Positions 9,640-58,253 of a stretch of DNA of 64,000 nucleotides are shown here, piece by piece. Positions within the stretch are counted from its first letter, which is position 1. Each line of letters starts with the position of its first letter. A program made the translations under genes and the position numbers. The notes beneath the pieces are model-generated. The model made no database searches. It was not told the DNA's origin and saw only the letters and a list, made by a program, of their open reading frames with translations. Source of the stretch: Comamonadaceae bacterium ALPHA2B (GTDB lineage Bacteria > Pseudomonadota > Gammaproteobacteria > Burkholderiales > Burkholderiaceae_C); the NCBI GenBank assembly GCA_005503065.1, contig SCOE01000005.1:124001-188000 (forward strand), in the 5' to 3' direction.

Positions 9640-9703
9640 GCTATCGAATCGATAGCTGACGGCGCAGGCGGGACGGGGGCTACAGCCCGATTTCGTTCAA
9701 ATC
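9640..9703 (+). repeat. Dispersed mini-repeat, copy a
   Basis: GCTATCGAATCGATAGC is a perfect 17-base palindrome (9640-9656). It is followed by a GCGC/GGCGGG segment, GGGCTACAGCCC, and a T-rich end. It begins 7 bases after the EgtB-like stop and reaches almost to the stop of the convergent kinase gene. Confidence 0.75.
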
Positions 9704-12277: not shown

Positions 12278-12338
12278 GCTATCGAAAAAATAGCGTCGTG
12301 CGTCCGCTGCATGGGCGCTGCAGCAATCTTTTTCCTGG
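12278..12338 (+). repeat. Dispersed mini-repeat, copy b
   Basis: GCTATCGAAAAAATAGC (12278-12294) is followed by a GCGC/GGGCGC segment and a T-rich end (CTTTTTCC). It lies in the divergent gap between the kinase and the NTF2-like gene, so it is transcribed in one of the two leaders. Confidence 0.7.
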
Positions 12339-12357
12339 ATCGAGGCGCGTGCCGGGT

Positions 12358-26250: not shown

Positions 26251-26263
26251 ACCGCCTCGACAA

Positions 26264-26326
26264 TTCAAGGAAAAAAGTGGCCGTGGCGCCCGCCGGACGC
26301 GGGCTTCCAGCTATCGATTCGATAGC
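26264..26326 (-). repeat. Dispersed mini-repeat, copy c, overlapping the mrpG end
   Basis: Read leftward: GCTATCGAATCGATAGC (palindrome, 26310-26326), then GCCCGC, GGCGGGCGCC, ACGGCCACTTTTTTCC. The TAG stop codon of mrpG (26311-26313) is inside the palindrome. Confidence 0.75.
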
Positions 26327-32584: not shown

Positions 32585-32650
32585 TGCGATCGATTCTATC
32601 GACCGACCCTCATCGGCCCATTGGAAAAAACCGCAGACGGGCCGCCGGTC

Positions 32651-32713
32651 TTTCAGACGAAAAGTGCCTGTAACGCCCGCCAGTCGGGCGCGAGCAGCTA
32701 TGAATTCCGTAGC
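32651..32713 (-). repeat. Dispersed mini-repeat, copy e, upstream of mrpA
   Basis: Read leftward: GCTACGGAATTCATAGC, then TGCTCGCGCCCG, GGCGGGCG, ACAGGCACTTTTCG. The head plus TGCTCGCGCCC is nearly the same as in copy d at 58128. It lies in the 147-base gap between crcB and mrpA. Confidence 0.75.
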
Positions 32714-40560: not shown

Positions 40561-42582
40561 TCAGCGGGCGTCGAAAGGCTGCACCTGCCGCCACCAAGCC
40601 AAGACCTGATCCACCGATTGCTCGATGCTTTGGTCGGAGTTGTCCAGGAGGCGGGCGTCTTCGGCGGGCTTCAGCGGCGCGACGCTGCGGGAAGAGTCCC
40701 TGGCGTCACGCGCTTCCAAGTCGGCGCGAAGACTGTCGAGTGTAACCGAAATTCCCTTTGAAATCAACTGCTTATGCCGGCGCTCCGCGCGGTGCGCAGC
40801 GCTGGCCGTCAGGTAGACCTTCAAGGAAGCGTCGGGGAAGATGACGGTGCCCATGTCGCGCCCGTCCGCCACCAGGCCCGGCAGCCGGCGGAAGGACAGC
40901 TGCAGCTCGCGCAGGGCTTCGCGCACCGCCGGCAGCGCCGACACGCGAGACGCGTCCATGCCTGCCGCCTCGGTGCGGATCGCGTCGGTGATGTCCTCGC
41001 CGGCCAGCAGAACCTGGCCGGCTTCGAAGCGCAGGGCCAGGCCGCGGGCGAGCTCGGCGATGCGGGCTTCGTCGGCCGGGCCGGCCTCCAGTCCCGCGCG
41101 CCGCATGACCAGGCCCGCGACCCGGTAGAGGGCGCCCGAATCGAGGTAGTGGTAGCCGAGCCGTCGAGCGATCTCGGCCGCGAGCGTGCCCTTGCCGGAG
41201 GCGGTGGGGCCGTCCACGCAGATCACGGGTACCTCGGCGGGCCGGACCACCGAGAACAGCGCCTCGAAGTAGTCCGGGAAGGTCTTGCCCACGCACTTGG
41301 GGTCGAGGATGCGAACCGGCAGCCCGTCCGGATTGAAGGCCGCGAGCGAGAAGCACATCGCCACCCGGTGGTCGTCGTAGGTATGGATGCTGGCGCGCCG
41401 CCAGTGGCCGCGCGCCAGCGGCTCGATCCGGAGGAAGTCCGGGCCGGCATCGACAGTGGCCCCGAGCTTGCGCAGTTCGGCCGCCATGGCGTCGATGCGG
41501 TCGGTTTCCTTCACACGCCAGCTTGCGATGTTGCGCAACGTGCTGGGACCGTCGGCATAGAGTGCCATGACGGCCAGCGTCATCGCCGCATCGGGGATGT
41601 GGTTGGCGTCGATGTCGATGGCGCGCAGCGGCCAGGCGCCGCGCTCGATCTGTAGCCAGTTGGGGCCGCTGGTGACCTGTGCGCCCATCTGCCGTGCGGC
41701 CTCGACGAAGCGGATGTCGCCCTGGATGGAGTCCGCGCCCACGCCTTCGATCTTCAAGCCATTTTGGCCCGGAACGCCCGCTGCTATTGCGCCAAGCGCT
41801 ATGAAATAGCTAGCAGACGAGGCATCCGCCTCGACGAGGACATCGCCCGCCGAGCAGTACTGCGCGCCGGTCGGGATGACGAAGCGCGACCAGCCGTCGC
41901 GTTGCACGTCGATGCCGAAGCGCGCGAGCAGGTTCAGCGTGATCTCGATGTACGGCTTGGAGATCAGCTCGCCGATCACCTCGATGGTGATCGGGCGCGT
42001 GCTGGCCGCCAGCGGCAACGCCAGGAGCAGGGCGGTGAGGAATTGGCTCGACACGTCGCCGCGCACCCGGATCGGCAGGTCGAGTTGCAGCGCAGATGCC
42101 GCGACGGGCCGGATGCGCAGGGGCGGAAAGCCGGGGTTGCCGAGGTACTCGACCTGGCAGCCCAGCTGCACCAGCGCGTCGACCAGATCGCCAATCGGGC
42201 GCTCATGCATGCGCGGCACGCCGCGCAGTTCGAAATCACCGCCCAGCAGGGCGAGCGCGGCAGTGAGCGGCCGCATGGCCGTGCCGGCATTGCCGAGGAA
42301 CAGCGACAAAGCGCGTTGGCGGACCTCCTCGCCCAGGCGGCCACCGAGCCCGTCGATGCGCAGCACGCCGCCATCCCGGTGCAGGCCGCAGCCGAGCGCT
42401 GCCAGCGCGTCGAGCATCACGCGGGTGTCGTCGGAATCGAGCAGGTCGTGGACGGTGGTGGTGCCTTGCGCCAGGGCGGCCAGCAGCAGCACGCGGTTGG
42501 AGATGCTCTTGGAACCCGGCAGGCGAACCGAGCCGCCGGCCGCCACGAGAGGAGGGACGTCGAGAAAAGGTGTGGCGTACAT
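40561..42582 (-). CDS. aroA-cmk: Bifunctional EPSP synthase / cytidylate kinase fusion
   Basis: A 673-residue fusion. Residues about 1-445 are 5-enolpyruvylshikimate-3-phosphate synthase ([50 protein letters not shown]), step six of the shikimate pathway. From about 455 the chain continues without a stop into CMP kinase (P-loop [34 protein letters not shown]), which phosphorylates CMP/dCMP. In most bacteria these are two genes. The AroA part has a short inserted loop (about 257-277) encoded by repeat copy h. It starts 2 bases after the tyrA stop and heads toward rpsA. Confidence 0.95.
41753..41812 (-). repeat. Mini-repeat inside aroA, copy h
   Basis: Read leftward: GCTATTTCATAGC, then GCTTGGCGC, GCGGGCGTTCCGGGCC, AAAATGGCTTGAA. 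All parts of the element are in order. It is in frame and encodes about 20 residues of AroA ([17 protein letters not shown]), where E. coli AroA has a loop some five residues shorter. Confidence 0.65.
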
Positions 42583-51428: not shown

Positions 51429-51814
51429 GGGGCTGCACTGGTTTCGACGTGGGTTCGGGATCGCAGCGGGGCATGTCGAGCTGAATGCGCTCGTTAAACA
51501 GATTCAAACAAACTAACTGCAAACGACGAACGTTTCGCACTCGCCGCTTAAACCCGGTGAGCCTTGCAACAGTTGGCCGATGGGCTGGGCAAGGGGGCGT
51601 TAGAGCAATCTGACGCCTCCCGGCTGCAAGGTTAATTACATTGGCTGGCCGCCGTCCGGGCACCTTGGGCGGCGGCGAGATTCAAGGGTGCTGGCGGCCG
51701 GTGGAGCGTGCGACTGCGCGACGCCGGTGGCGAGATCCAAAACAGATCGCTAAACATGTAGAACTGCGCGACGATGGCTTGCGGACGGGGGTTCAAATCC
51801 CCCCAGCTCCACCA
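51429..51814 (+). ncRNA. ssrA: Transfer-messenger RNA (tmRNA)
   Basis: A 386-base one-piece tmRNA that rescues stalled ribosomes. The 5' end GGGGCUG pairs with CAGCUCC before a 3' ACCA, forming the acceptor stem; the T arm GGGGGTTCAAATCCCCC is perfect. The D-like loop begins GCACTGGTTTCGACG. The tag frame starts at GCA 51519 and encodes ANDERFALAA with TAA at 51549-51551, the typical betaproteobacterial degradation tag. Pseudoknot regions lie between the tag and the T arm. A strong terminator follows. Confidence 0.97.
51519..51551 (+). other. tmRNA tag reading frame
   Basis: Resume codon GCA, then codons for NDERFALAA and a TAA stop. The tag sends rescued proteins to ClpXP/ClpAP. Confidence 0.95.
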
Positions 51815-55435: not shown

Positions 55436-56173
55436 ATGGAACTTCAGGACCTCCTCTACAGCCAGGGCTTCGGCACGCGTCGCGTTTGTGCCGGCCTCAT
55501 TCAACAGGGTTTCGTGGCTGTGGACGGCGTGGATGCTGCGCAGCCAGCTACGGATTTGATAGCGGCCGAGGGCCTGCGCTTCACCGTGCAGGGCACGCCG
55601 TGGGAGTACCACGGCAAGGCCTACCTGATGCTGCACAAGCCGGCCGGCACCGAGTGCTCGCAGAAGCCCTCGGCCTGGCCCAGCGTCTACACGCTGCTGC
55701 CCGCGCCGCTGCGCCAGCGCCCCGTCAAGGGCGGGCAGCCCGGCGTGCAGGCCATCGGCCGGCTCGACCAGGACACGACCGGCCTGCTGCTGCTCAGCGA
55801 CGACGGCCAGTTCATCCACCGCATGGCCTCGCCGAAGCACCATGTGCCCAAGGTCTACGAGGCGACGACGGCCGATGCGCTGACCGAGGCGCAGATCGGG
55901 CGCCTGCTGGCCGGCGTGGTGCTCGACGACGATCCGAAGCCCGTGCGCGCGGCTGCGGCCGAAGCGGTGGACACGCACCACCTGCGCCTCACGCTCACCG
56001 AGGGCAAGTACCACCAGGTCAAGCGCATGGTCGCGGCCGTGGGCAACCGCGTCACGGCGCTGCACCGCAGCGCCATCGGCGGCCTGGTGCTGCCGGCCGA
56101 CCTGGCGCCCGGCCAGTGGCGCTGGCTGAGGCCCGAGGACCTGCAGGCGGTGCGGCTTTCGGGCCCGGCCTGA
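55436..56173 (+). CDS. RsuA-family rRNA pseudouridine synthase
   Basis: A 245-residue enzyme. An N-terminal S4-like RNA-binding domain (about 1-55; GFGTRRVCAGLIQQGFVAV) precedes the RsuA/RluE/RluF catalytic domain with Asp111 in GRLDQDTTGLLLLSDDG. The usual signature KPAGTECS and GKYHQVKRMVAAVGN are present. It modifies 16S or 23S rRNA; which uridine cannot be told. The linker between the two domains contains a repeat-like stretch (55547-55575). Confidence 0.9.
   Translation: MELQDLLYSQGFGTRRVCAGLIQQGFVAVDGVDAAQPATDLIAAEGLRFTVQGTPWEYHGKAYLMLHKPAGTECSQKPSAWPSVYTLLPAPLRQRPVKGGQPGVQAIGRLDQDTTGLLLLSDDGQFIHRMASPKHHVPKVYEATTADALTEAQIGRLLAGVVLDDDPKPVRAAAAEAVDTHHLRLTLTEGKYHQVKRMVAAVGNRVTALHRSAIGGLVLPADLAPGQWRWLRPEDLQAVRLSGPA
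55547..55575 (+). repeat. Partial mini-repeat head inside the pseudouridine synthase gene, copy g
   Basis: GCTACGGATTTGATAGC followed by GGCC fits the palindrome head of the dispersed element. The rest of the element is not clearly present, so this could be a relic or chance. Confidence 0.35.
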
Positions 56174-57289: not shown

Positions 57290-58103
57290 TTTCCGGCCCG
57301 CCCGCGCGCTGCGGCAAGGCGCGTCGATTGCTACATTTTTCATAGCGGCTTGCGCAGCATCCGCGGGCGCTGCGGCCCAGAATGATTGCGACAAGCCGGT
57401 CTACCTGACCTTCGACACTGGCCACATGGGCATCGCGCCGCTGGTGGCCGAGGTGCTCAAGCGCCAGGACGTCAAGGTCACCTTCTTCGCCGCCGCCGAG
57501 AAGACGCAGGACGGCGGCGACAGCCTGGACGCCCGCTGGGCGCCGTGGTGGAAGGCTCGGGCCGCCGAGGGGCACGAGTTCGCCTCGCACACCTACGACC
57601 ATGCGTACTGGCGAGGGGACGTGAAAGGGGTGGACGCCAGGTTCCGGATCCAGCCGAGCGCCGGCGCGTACGCGGGACGCACCTTCACCTGGGACGCGGC
57701 GCAGTACTGCGAAGAGATCAAGCGCTCGACCGACCGGCTGGCGCACATCACCGGCAAGAAGCCGCTGCCGCTGTTCCGCGCGCCCGGCGGCAAGACCTCG
57801 CCGCGCCTGCTGGCGGCTGCCAAGTCCTGCGGCTTCGCGCACGTCGGCTGGTCGCCGGCCGGCTTCCTGGGCGACGAGCTGCCGAGCGACAAGTACCCCA
57901 ACGACAAGCTGCTGGCGCAGGCGCTGGAACACATCCGGCCCGGCGACATCCTGCTGGCGCACCTGGGCATCTGGTCGCGCCAGGACCCGTGGGCGCCGGC
58001 CGACCTGGAGCCGCTGATCGTGGGTTTGAAGGCCAAGGGCTTCTGCTTCCGCACGCTGCGCCAGCATCCGGCGTACCGCGAGTGGATCGTCGCGCACCCG
58101 TGA
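57273..58103 (+). CDS. Polysaccharide deacetylase family protein (NodB domain)
   Basis: A 276-residue exported CE4-type protein. The signal peptide (SIATFFIAACAASAGAAAQ) is encoded by a copy of the dispersed repeat. NodB motif 1 reads LTFDTGHMG: the second Asp of the usual TFDDG, a metal ligand, is Thr. Motif 2 (SHTYDH) keeps both histidines and motif 3 is FRAPGGK. It may deacetylate an envelope polysaccharide with an altered metal site or be a binding variant. It overlaps the propeller gene. Confidence 0.85.
   Translation: MPRSADFRPARALRQGASIATFFIAACAASAGAAAQNDCDKPVYLTFDTGHMGIAPLVAEVLKRQDVKVTFFAAAEKTQDGGDSLDARWAPWWKARAAEGHEFASHTYDHAYWRGDVKGVDARFRIQPSAGAYAGRTFTWDAAQYCEEIKRSTDRLAHITGKKPLPLFRAPGGKTSPRLLAAAKSCGFAHVGWSPAGFLGDELPSDKYPNDKLLAQALEHIRPGDILLAHLGIWSRQDPWAPADLEPLIVGLKAKGFCFRTLRQHPAYREWIVAHP
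57330..57388 (+). repeat. Mini-repeat encoding a signal peptide, copy f
   Basis: GCTACATTTTTCATAGC, then GGCTTGCGC, CGCGGGCGC, GCGGCCCAGAATGATTG: all element parts in order. In frame it encodes ATFFIAACAASAGAAAQND of the deacetylase signal peptide. Confidence 0.65.
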
Positions 58104-58127: not shown

Positions 58128-58191
58128 CTACTATGAAATCGATAGCTGCTCGCGCCCATCCGCTGGACGAGACGGCCACTTTTGATTCATG
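58128..58191 (+). repeat. Dispersed mini-repeat, copy d
   Basis: CTATGAAATCGATAG head, then CTGCTCGCGCCCATCCGC, GGACGAGACGGCCACTTTTG and ATTCATG. It lies between the deacetylase and the fatty-acid-hydroxylase-like gene and is the best-preserved intergenic copy together with copy e. Confidence 0.75.
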
Positions 58192-58253
58192 AAATTACTA
58201 AGACGCATCTTGGTGATCGAAGCGCCTGGTCCGGGCCTTGGCAGGAGCTGCGC

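Follow-up and report, generated by a model that had tools for sequence, protein, structure and literature searches.

The window analysed here, a stretch of 64,000 nucleotides (nt) from Comamonadaceae bacterium ALPHA2B (positions 124,001 to 188,000 of contig SCOE01000005.1), contains an aroA-cmk fusion gene in which about 60 nt of aroA are a member, in frame, of a genomic repeat family. aroA is an essential gene, and the feature is real, unusual and kept across a clade of the bacterial family; part of its novelty is that a repeat copy serves as coding sequence in such a gene and is still tied to its genomic family. We consider it rather probable that an ancient copy of this repeat family, which resembles repetitive extragenic palindromes (REP) and is tied to a Y1 (HUH) transposase, came to lie in aroA as coding sequence, and that it was later kept tied to the family by re-supply or by selection at the DNA level.

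The repeat-like segment of aroA

The genes aroA and cmk are joined in a single open frame of 673 amino acids (aa) on the minus strand, and the bifunctional enzyme has a dedicated NCBIfam model, NF008816. The product scores 1154 bits against this model (cutoff 943), and Pfam EPSP_synthase covers its residues 1-447. The source genome has a size of 6.0 Mb, and its AroA shares 94% identity with the protein of Xenophilus sp. E41. The gene and the parts of the segment lie as follows.

40561..42582, minus strand: aroA-cmk fusion (bifunctional 3-phosphoshikimate 1-carboxyvinyltransferase/cytidylate kinase), from its open frame, NF008816 and EPSP_synthase
41752..41813, minus strand: element-like segment in aroA, residues ~257-277 (21 residues), from nhmmer E-values and the synonymous null
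41798..41810, minus strand: left palindrome GCTAT-TTC-ATAGC in codons AGC TAT TTC ATA GCG, read from the sequence
41761..41775, minus strand: about five extra residues, VPGQN (270-274), relative to the 33-residue order-level form, from alignment to solved AroA and outgroup loops; placement uncertain by one or two residues
41752..41769, minus strand: right arm GGCCAAAATGGCTTGAAG of the segment, read from the sequence and like the tail of genomic copies such as L012 and L018

The landmarks of the repeat follow one another in order within the segment, namely the GCTAT..ATAGC palindrome, a GCGC core, GCGGGCG and GGCC..TGGCTTGAAG. The first-pass annotation of this DNA was thus right to describe the parts of the repeat as ordered, in frame and free of stops inside aroA; its figure of about 20 residues does not agree with the string that it quoted, which is 17 residues long. 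Moreover, the only two ATA codons of the gene are both found in the segment. The aroA copy departs from the genomic repeat by a palindrome spacer of 3 nt instead of the usual 7 nt, and by the loss of the GC stem that intergenic copies have. Compared with shuffled sequences, two intergenic copies fold better (z -2.3 and -3.7), but the aroA copies of the window (z -0.75) and of locus L112 (z -0.67) do not.

The genomic repeat and its distribution

In the window and in the rest of its genome, repeat copies read GCTAT-N7-ATAGC-TG, followed by a hairpin rich in GC and then by a tail such as GGCCGATTTGGCTTGAA, i.e. two tandem hairpins across ~60 nt, with ATAG preceding the stem CTGC. Five copies of the window illustrate this form.

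9640..9703, plus strand: genomic repeat copy (nhmmer E 7e-13; the copy is in the profile-building set)
12278..12340, plus strand: weaker genomic repeat copy (nhmmer E 1.6e-4, pan-family profile)
26263..26326, minus strand: genomic repeat copy (nhmmer E 1.5e-12; the copy is in the profile-building set)
32650..32713, minus strand: genomic repeat copy (nhmmer E 1.3e-9, pan-family profile)
58131..58192, plus strand: genomic repeat copy (nhmmer E 2e-9, own-copy profile)

The pattern GCTATN{4,9}ATAGCTGC has 132 matches in the window's genome, and its backward version none. It allows spacers of 4-9 nt, and nearly all listed genomic matches of the family have 7 nt, usually palindromic inside. Among 250 sampled genomes of the bacterial family, 87 contain the pattern, the repeat-rich ones with 20 to 192 matches. 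Outside the family, 214 genomes of the order have at most 4 matches, both strands together, which is the range of the backward control. These counts support a lineage-restricted repeat.

Membership of the aroA segment in the repeat family

We searched with a pan-family profile built from 66 repeat copies (25 from the window's genome and 41 from relatives), from which aroA copies were excluded. By nhmmer, the window's own segment is marginal (E 0.11 at 41806-41752 with this profile; E 0.29 at 41813-41753 with a profile of the genome's own copies). Across 122 scored aroA loci, including the window's own and a few from the same genome or identical, the 66-copy profile finds the aroA site in 49 of the 58 element-like loci (those with TTCATAGC or TTTATAGC) and in none of the 64 others. 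The best scores at this site in relatives were obtained for L112 (Simplicispira; 4e-8), L093 (2e-7) and L071 (4e-6). Over the remainder of the same ~700 kb, the profile gave 7 matches, against 5 in the reversed control.

We then recoded the loop region synonymously with the gene's own codon usage. The real score was reached 0 times out of 300 in each of 16 genomes (17 were requested, and one was without a fetched gene). The window's own gene also gave 0 of 300, so that its segment resembles the repeat more closely than the encoded residues demand. Since these synonymous nulls never reach the real score, membership is independent of the protein sequence. The aroA segment is a member of the repeat family, in frame.

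Loop length, helix and ancestry

The window's AroA has 38 residues in the region of the segment, against 33 in 22 of 24 order-level outgroup genes, these 24 being the best-scoring ones outside the family and an uneven sample. A 5-residue gap also falls at the segment in both printed alignments to solved AroA chains (3nvs, 7tm4), in agreement with the earlier estimate of a loop about five residues longer. The gain is +5 relative to the outgroups and +3 relative to another clade of the family. In a set of 123 genes, 38 residues is the commonest length, found in 43 of 55 element-like genes and 39 of 68 others.

An AlphaFold2 model (27-row alignment, mean pLDDT 88.8) shows residues 254-266 as helix, 267-275 as loop and 276-279 as strand, so that in the model the added residues would sit in the loop and the remainder of the segment would form a helix end. 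Outgroup AroA has the helix motif as well (FLAAGAI), mostly with Leu at 261; thus about two-thirds of the element overlies pre-existing codons. The ~60 nt match goes with a net gain of just 9-15 nt, which disfavours a simple insertion of the whole element into the loop. The first-pass annotation had seen in the segment a domesticated surface loop, to be checked on a structure model. Part of this stands: the DNA is repeat-family DNA, in frame, lineage-restricted and retained across a family clade, with repeat-related sequence beyond what the protein needs, as expected of a domesticated repeat, and residues 267-275 are loop in the model. However, the segment is not simply an inserted loop, the rest of it being predicted helix end.

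Ser258 is encoded by TCN in 23 of the 24 outgroup genes. Among 118 distinct family loci retrieved by protein search alone, it is AGY in 117 (54/54 element-like and 63/64 others); we relied on these loci because the AGY count in the 123-gene set (122) is partly selected. The only AGY outgroup gene, L343, is probably foreign; it comes from a genome with a listed contamination of 6 percent, where it is the second of the aroA copies, and it clusters with the family. In 20 family genes lacking a match to the AGY pattern, Ser258 is TCN in 20/20, which follows partly from the pattern demanding AGY, and the length is 35 residues in 19/20. TCN is likewise present in G116, another genome missed by the pattern, which clusters with these TCN genes. 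A quick protein tree of 167 genes has two changes of the serine codon class; the tree with AGY genes monophyletic has a higher likelihood and is not rejected (p-AU 0.935). A change from TCN to AGY takes two substitutions, and the relic is therefore hard for synonymous drift to erase. As far as sequences can tell, the switch of serine codon class points to one ancestral event.

The first-pass annotation had also proposed an alignment of AroA, in which equal-length loops with unrelated DNA in repeat-free lineages would speak against its reading. Such loops were found, since the 39 genes with 38 residues mentioned above lack element-like codons, and eight genomes of this kind in the window's genus have 0 repeat matches; yet all of them share AGY at 258. 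Because the ordinary-codon genes carry this same relic, decay is favoured over independent origin, and the 38-residue genes with ordinary codons are better read as products of putative decay after that one event than as independent loops of equal length.

Codon states and repeat load

The aroA codon pattern, which requires AGY, matched 133 of the 250 family genomes; the other 117 are absent from the table. We called element-like the genomes with ATA or GTA at residue 261, i.e. 58 of the 133, leaving 75 that are not. GCT is found at codon 257 in 52/58 element-like genomes and 1/75 others, and TAT at codon 259 in 57/58 and 23/75, respectively. Codons 257-261 form the most uniform stretch of the segment among element-like relatives. 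The GC percentage at the third codon position (GC3) is similar in the two groups of the 123-gene set (median 0.889 vs. 0.877), and GC content is therefore rejected as an explanation of the two states. This set comprises 15 genes of the genus, 27 best-scoring genes, that of G049 and 80 genes retrieved by their coordinates, 79 of these being matches to the AGY pattern.

More than 5 repeat matches were found in 43 of the 58 element-like genomes and 7 of the 75 others (Fisher test, 5e-15). Within the window's genus, element-like codons are found in the five genomes with 105-176 matches and ordinary ones in the nine with 0-2, the single genome with 12 matches being intermediate. G049, which the codon pattern missed, is element-like and has 192 repeat matches. 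On a protein tree of the 123 genes, 8 independent pairs agree with repeat load in 2.9 cases on average, and none disagree. Thus, repeat-rich lineages mostly retain element-like codons and repeat-free ones mostly lack them.

In a scan for synonymous conservation, the element is the top 9-codon window of aroA (0.28), barely above two others (0.27), with codon 261 biased because it defines the element-like group; the strongest positions also comprise serine and alanine codons in other parts of aroA.

As a separate observation, G098 carries two aroA genes, one element-like with a 38-residue loop (L236, L237 being the two loci) and one with ordinary codons and 36 residues; the 133-genome table holds the element-like copy.

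Fit to the repeat dialects of genera

Profiles of five genera were compared with element-like aroA loops (13 genes, centred scores, 120 permutations). The profile of the own genus fits best in 9 of the 13 genes, and the matched assignment is the best of the 120 permutations. G170 and G045 score 17.8 and 19.9 bits with their own genus and at most 3.9 with the others; likewise, G229 and G138 score 20.3 and 23.1 bits with their own and at most 8.3 elsewhere. The score of G251 is zero with all profiles, which makes its rank uninformative. Such tracking of dialects is expected from re-supply or DNA-level selection, and not from a single old fossil.

The Y1 transposase and the repeat

In the window's genus, a Y1 gene was found in 6/6 genomes with at least 12 repeat matches and 8/9 others (PF01797 above cutoff in 14/15). 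Among 30 chosen family genomes, it was found in 18/19 carriers of the repeat and 10/11 non-carriers, PF01797 exceeding its cutoff in 27/30. As the gene is present in carriers and non-carriers, its presence fails to explain repeat load. In these samples, Y1 presence is rejected as the switch for repeat load, both groups having the gene and no match being found in carrier G154.

Of 22 carrier loci (21 genomes), 12 have a repeat copy that starts -9 to +18 nt from the Y1 stop codon, whereas none of 12 non-carrier loci has one; for 12/21 loci the position comes from one of two analyses, and the Y1 genes of genus genomes G001, G006 and G007 are outside this count. The abutting 3' copies are all in one orientation, and eight of the 12 have an E-value of 0.03 or better. 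In G009, a copy directly follows the Y1 stop codon. Copies near the 5' end were seen in 2 loci (G251, G202), and farther upstream in 4. The start of gltB lies within 17 of 34 fetched Y1 loci; it is near 7 of the 12 repeat-adjacent ones and not near the other 5. Adjacency with and without gltB means that the arrangement is probably not just one inherited locus.

The Y1 protein of G000 contains NHFH and YIDLNP. The Y1 protein reaches 69.9 bits against NCBIfam NF047646 (REP-associated transposase), the sole family listed, which is under the curated cutoff of 80. Carriers and non-carriers alike have, after the Y1 gene, a right end like TTTGATGTGTCCCC, which is directly joined to the repeat in several carriers (L336 and others). 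TGTCCC is present in the searched span of 29/32 Y1 loci, and the exact GGGGWSAS motif in 11 by counting printed rows; in G000, the other strand at the right end reads GGGGACAC, which fits this motif. The exact left-side word GGGGACA was found in 2/32 loci, both from non-carriers. Judged from these arrangements, the repeat likely works as a repeat linked to a REP-associated tyrosine transposase (RAYT), with a likely RAYT-like partner. We do not file it as REP, because its head is ATAG and not GT(A/G)G, its abutting copies were in most loci seen on the 3' side only, and the model score is below cutoff.

Comparison with known systems

Coevolution of RAYTs and REPs is described in the accessible part of PMC2817692, in which the RAYTs that satisfy its definition are restricted to gammaproteobacteria, plus one Thauera case. 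The present system resembles this one by its many short hairpin elements, by a Y1/HUH gene with a 3' copy in about half of the carrier loci, and by the covariation of repeat and lineage (cf. the same part of PMC2817692). It differs by its ATAG head (GT(A/G)G in REP), by an abutting copy on the 3' side only in most loci, by two tandem hairpins over ~60 nt and by coding copies that overlie codons.

For TIRYT genes, a GGGGWSAS motif is reported in the accessible part of PMC3733652 (Di Nocera et al. 2013). The right end TTTGATGTGTCCCC lying 3' of the Y1 gene, whose exact form fits this motif, recalls these TIRYT/TIRtron elements as that part presents them; however, with the left word in just 2/32 loci, terminal repeats are mostly seen on one side, and the right end also occurs in non-carriers. 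The same text mentions Rickettsia palindromic elements, which are palindromic repeats in frame within protein-coding genes. The aroA repeat is also palindromic and in frame in a coding gene, a comparison made with the description in that text. In contrast to those elements, about two-thirds of it overlies pre-existing conserved codons, and its codon state is tied to the genomic repeat family-wide. Finally, the BRE repeat is reported in the accessible part of PMC3110155 as occurring in Comamonadaceae, with some copies wholly inside coding sequences, so that host and location are alike; it is however ~75-91 bp long by this description and also found in Bordetella, whereas the present repeat is at background level in the 214 order genomes outside the family. 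In the open-access literature (subscription papers and supplements being outside the scope), we found no account, among the matches listed, of this repeat as part of aroA or of any Comamonadaceae repeat linked to a RAYT. The likely RAYT-like partner in this group therefore adds to the novelty of the coding copy.

Proposed explanation and its rivals

We propose that repeat sequence of ~60 nt came to overlie aroA codons, presumably in one event, in the common ancestor of the main clade of Comamonadaceae, the repeats belonging to a family associated with a Y1 (HUH) tyrosine transposase of RAYT/TIRYT type. The repeat would have taken the place of the last part of a conserved helix and made the next loop 3 to 5 residues longer, a change that aroA would have tolerated since it left an open frame and encoded compatible residues. 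In lineages with a living repeat family, the rare codons mostly persist and match the dialect of the lineage, as the associations above indicate, which would be due to continued re-supply or DNA-level selection of the aroA copy. Our first choice for this, and by inference the likeliest route, would be patching templated by single strands that the transposase makes from the repeat; the second would be selection for a transposase-recognised site in aroA. Where the repeat is absent, the segment mostly has ordinary GC-rich codons.

Several results weigh against this explanation. The quick protein tree nests the TCN clade of the family within AGY genes, which implies both a gain and a loss of AGY. 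On a DNA tree of the 123 genes with the segment removed, the 25 state changes leave 9 well-supported independent pairs, of which a mean of 3.7 agree with repeat load, 0.4 disagree and 4.9 show no difference (median p 0.25); with a cut-off of >2 matches, 4.0 pairs agree and 2.4 disagree. The main exception among genomes is G078 (locus L252), with 189 repeat matches and an aroA without element-like codons; conversely, the pattern has 0 matches in G170, G259, G068 and G135, whose aroA codons are element-like. The dialect comparison covers 13 genes in five genera with a permutation floor of 1/120, and G251, G199 and G233 score 0 with the profile of their own genus. Y1 transposases are present in most of the chosen non-carriers too (10/11), no Y1 match was found in carrier G154 (123 repeat matches; 99% complete, 70 contigs), and four of the 12 adjacent repeat copies are weak (E 0.09-0.6). 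Patching itself is deduced and unobserved.

A single ancestral insertion or overwrite may have been followed by plain coding inheritance, the repeat playing no later part and differences between lineages reflecting no more than how fast, and by what chance, their codons drifted. The few changes of serine class (2 on the tree of 167 genes), the loop length kept in 39/68 genes without element-like codons and a repeat-load link that is not significant on independent pairs are all in keeping with this account. We nevertheless find it rather unlikely, since the rare codons ATA, TAT and GCT persist jointly at a GC3 near 0.89 over 23-25 state changes, and since aroA copies track genus dialects, which is unexpected from drift of one ancestor.

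It is less plausible still that native codons were point-mutated, under DNA- or RNA-level selection, into a site for the factor of the repeats, with no element written in. The helix part does encode residues that AroA has regardless (outgroup FLAAGAI), the most uniform part is the short GCTAGCTAT..ATAGC, and a further coding copy of the window, in an RsuA-like gene, came without length change. However, the serine switch from TCN to AGY, the change from Leu to Ile and the lengthening of the loop co-occur with the right arm of the element, and a 60-nt match including the tail is much for point mutation to build.

That the aroA segment, or the transposase end, was the source of the repeat family is very improbable: translation of the element core comes close to the ancestral AroA motif (IAAGAI in L112 and L093), and outgroups have LAAGAI without repeats, but nearly all listed genomic copies have a 7-nt spacer, followed by a GC stem, where aroA has a 3-nt spacer and no such stem, and the repeat adjoins the transposase gene. 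As for a chance resemblance forced by the protein sequence, with which the E-values of 0.11-0.29 in the window alone would agree, it is ruled out for all practical purposes by the synonymous nulls and by E-values down to 4e-8 in relatives.

If the ancient copy in aroA has indeed stayed tied to its repeat family, a selfish repeat and protein selection would share codons of an essential enzyme, and the tie could be traced family-wide by comparing codon states with repeat load. AroA is the target of glyphosate and is used in phylogeny; on this reading, its codons should therefore not be treated as freely drifting in the Comamonadaceae group.

Other coding copies in the window

Two more coding copies were found in the window.

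55515..55563, minus strand: second coding copy, in an RsuA-like pseudouridine synthase gene that lies on the plus strand (nhmmer E 0.0064)
57330..57390, plus strand: third coding copy, in the N-terminal, signal-peptide-like part of a polysaccharide deacetylase gene (nhmmer E 0.013)

The RsuA-like gene has Pfam PF00849, with S4 just under cutoff. Its site is element-like in carriers G000 and G010 (E 0.006 each), G009 giving a weak partial match and G006 and G007 none. The length of the site is equal in 15/15 genus members, including those without the repeat, and 0 of 500 synonymous recodings reach the real score.

The deacetylase gene has Pfam PF01522, and its copy shares the reading phase of the aroA copy (FFIAACAASAGAAAQN). 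This stretch was matched in G000, G010, G009, G006 and G007 and not in other genus members; 2 of 500 synonymous recodings score as high. Its length equals that of G001, which has ordinary codons, the starts of the genes of non-carriers being too divergent for a length comparison.

The aroA and RsuA-like cases together suggest that replacement fits better than insertion. It is a tentative possibility that RAYT-like repeats spread by overwriting target DNA of nearly the same length with repeat-derived single strands, which would allow coding sites that stay open and compatible to be rewritten with no indel; aroA would be a standing target that is repeatedly rewritten and whose codons, with some of the residues, co-evolve with the selfish repeat. 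If so, coding copies without length change would offer a direct test of replacement over insertion in the spread of REP-like repeats.

At gathering thresholds, the sole Rfam match over the window is a tmRNA gene.

51429-51814: tmRNA gene (Rfam match at gathering threshold)
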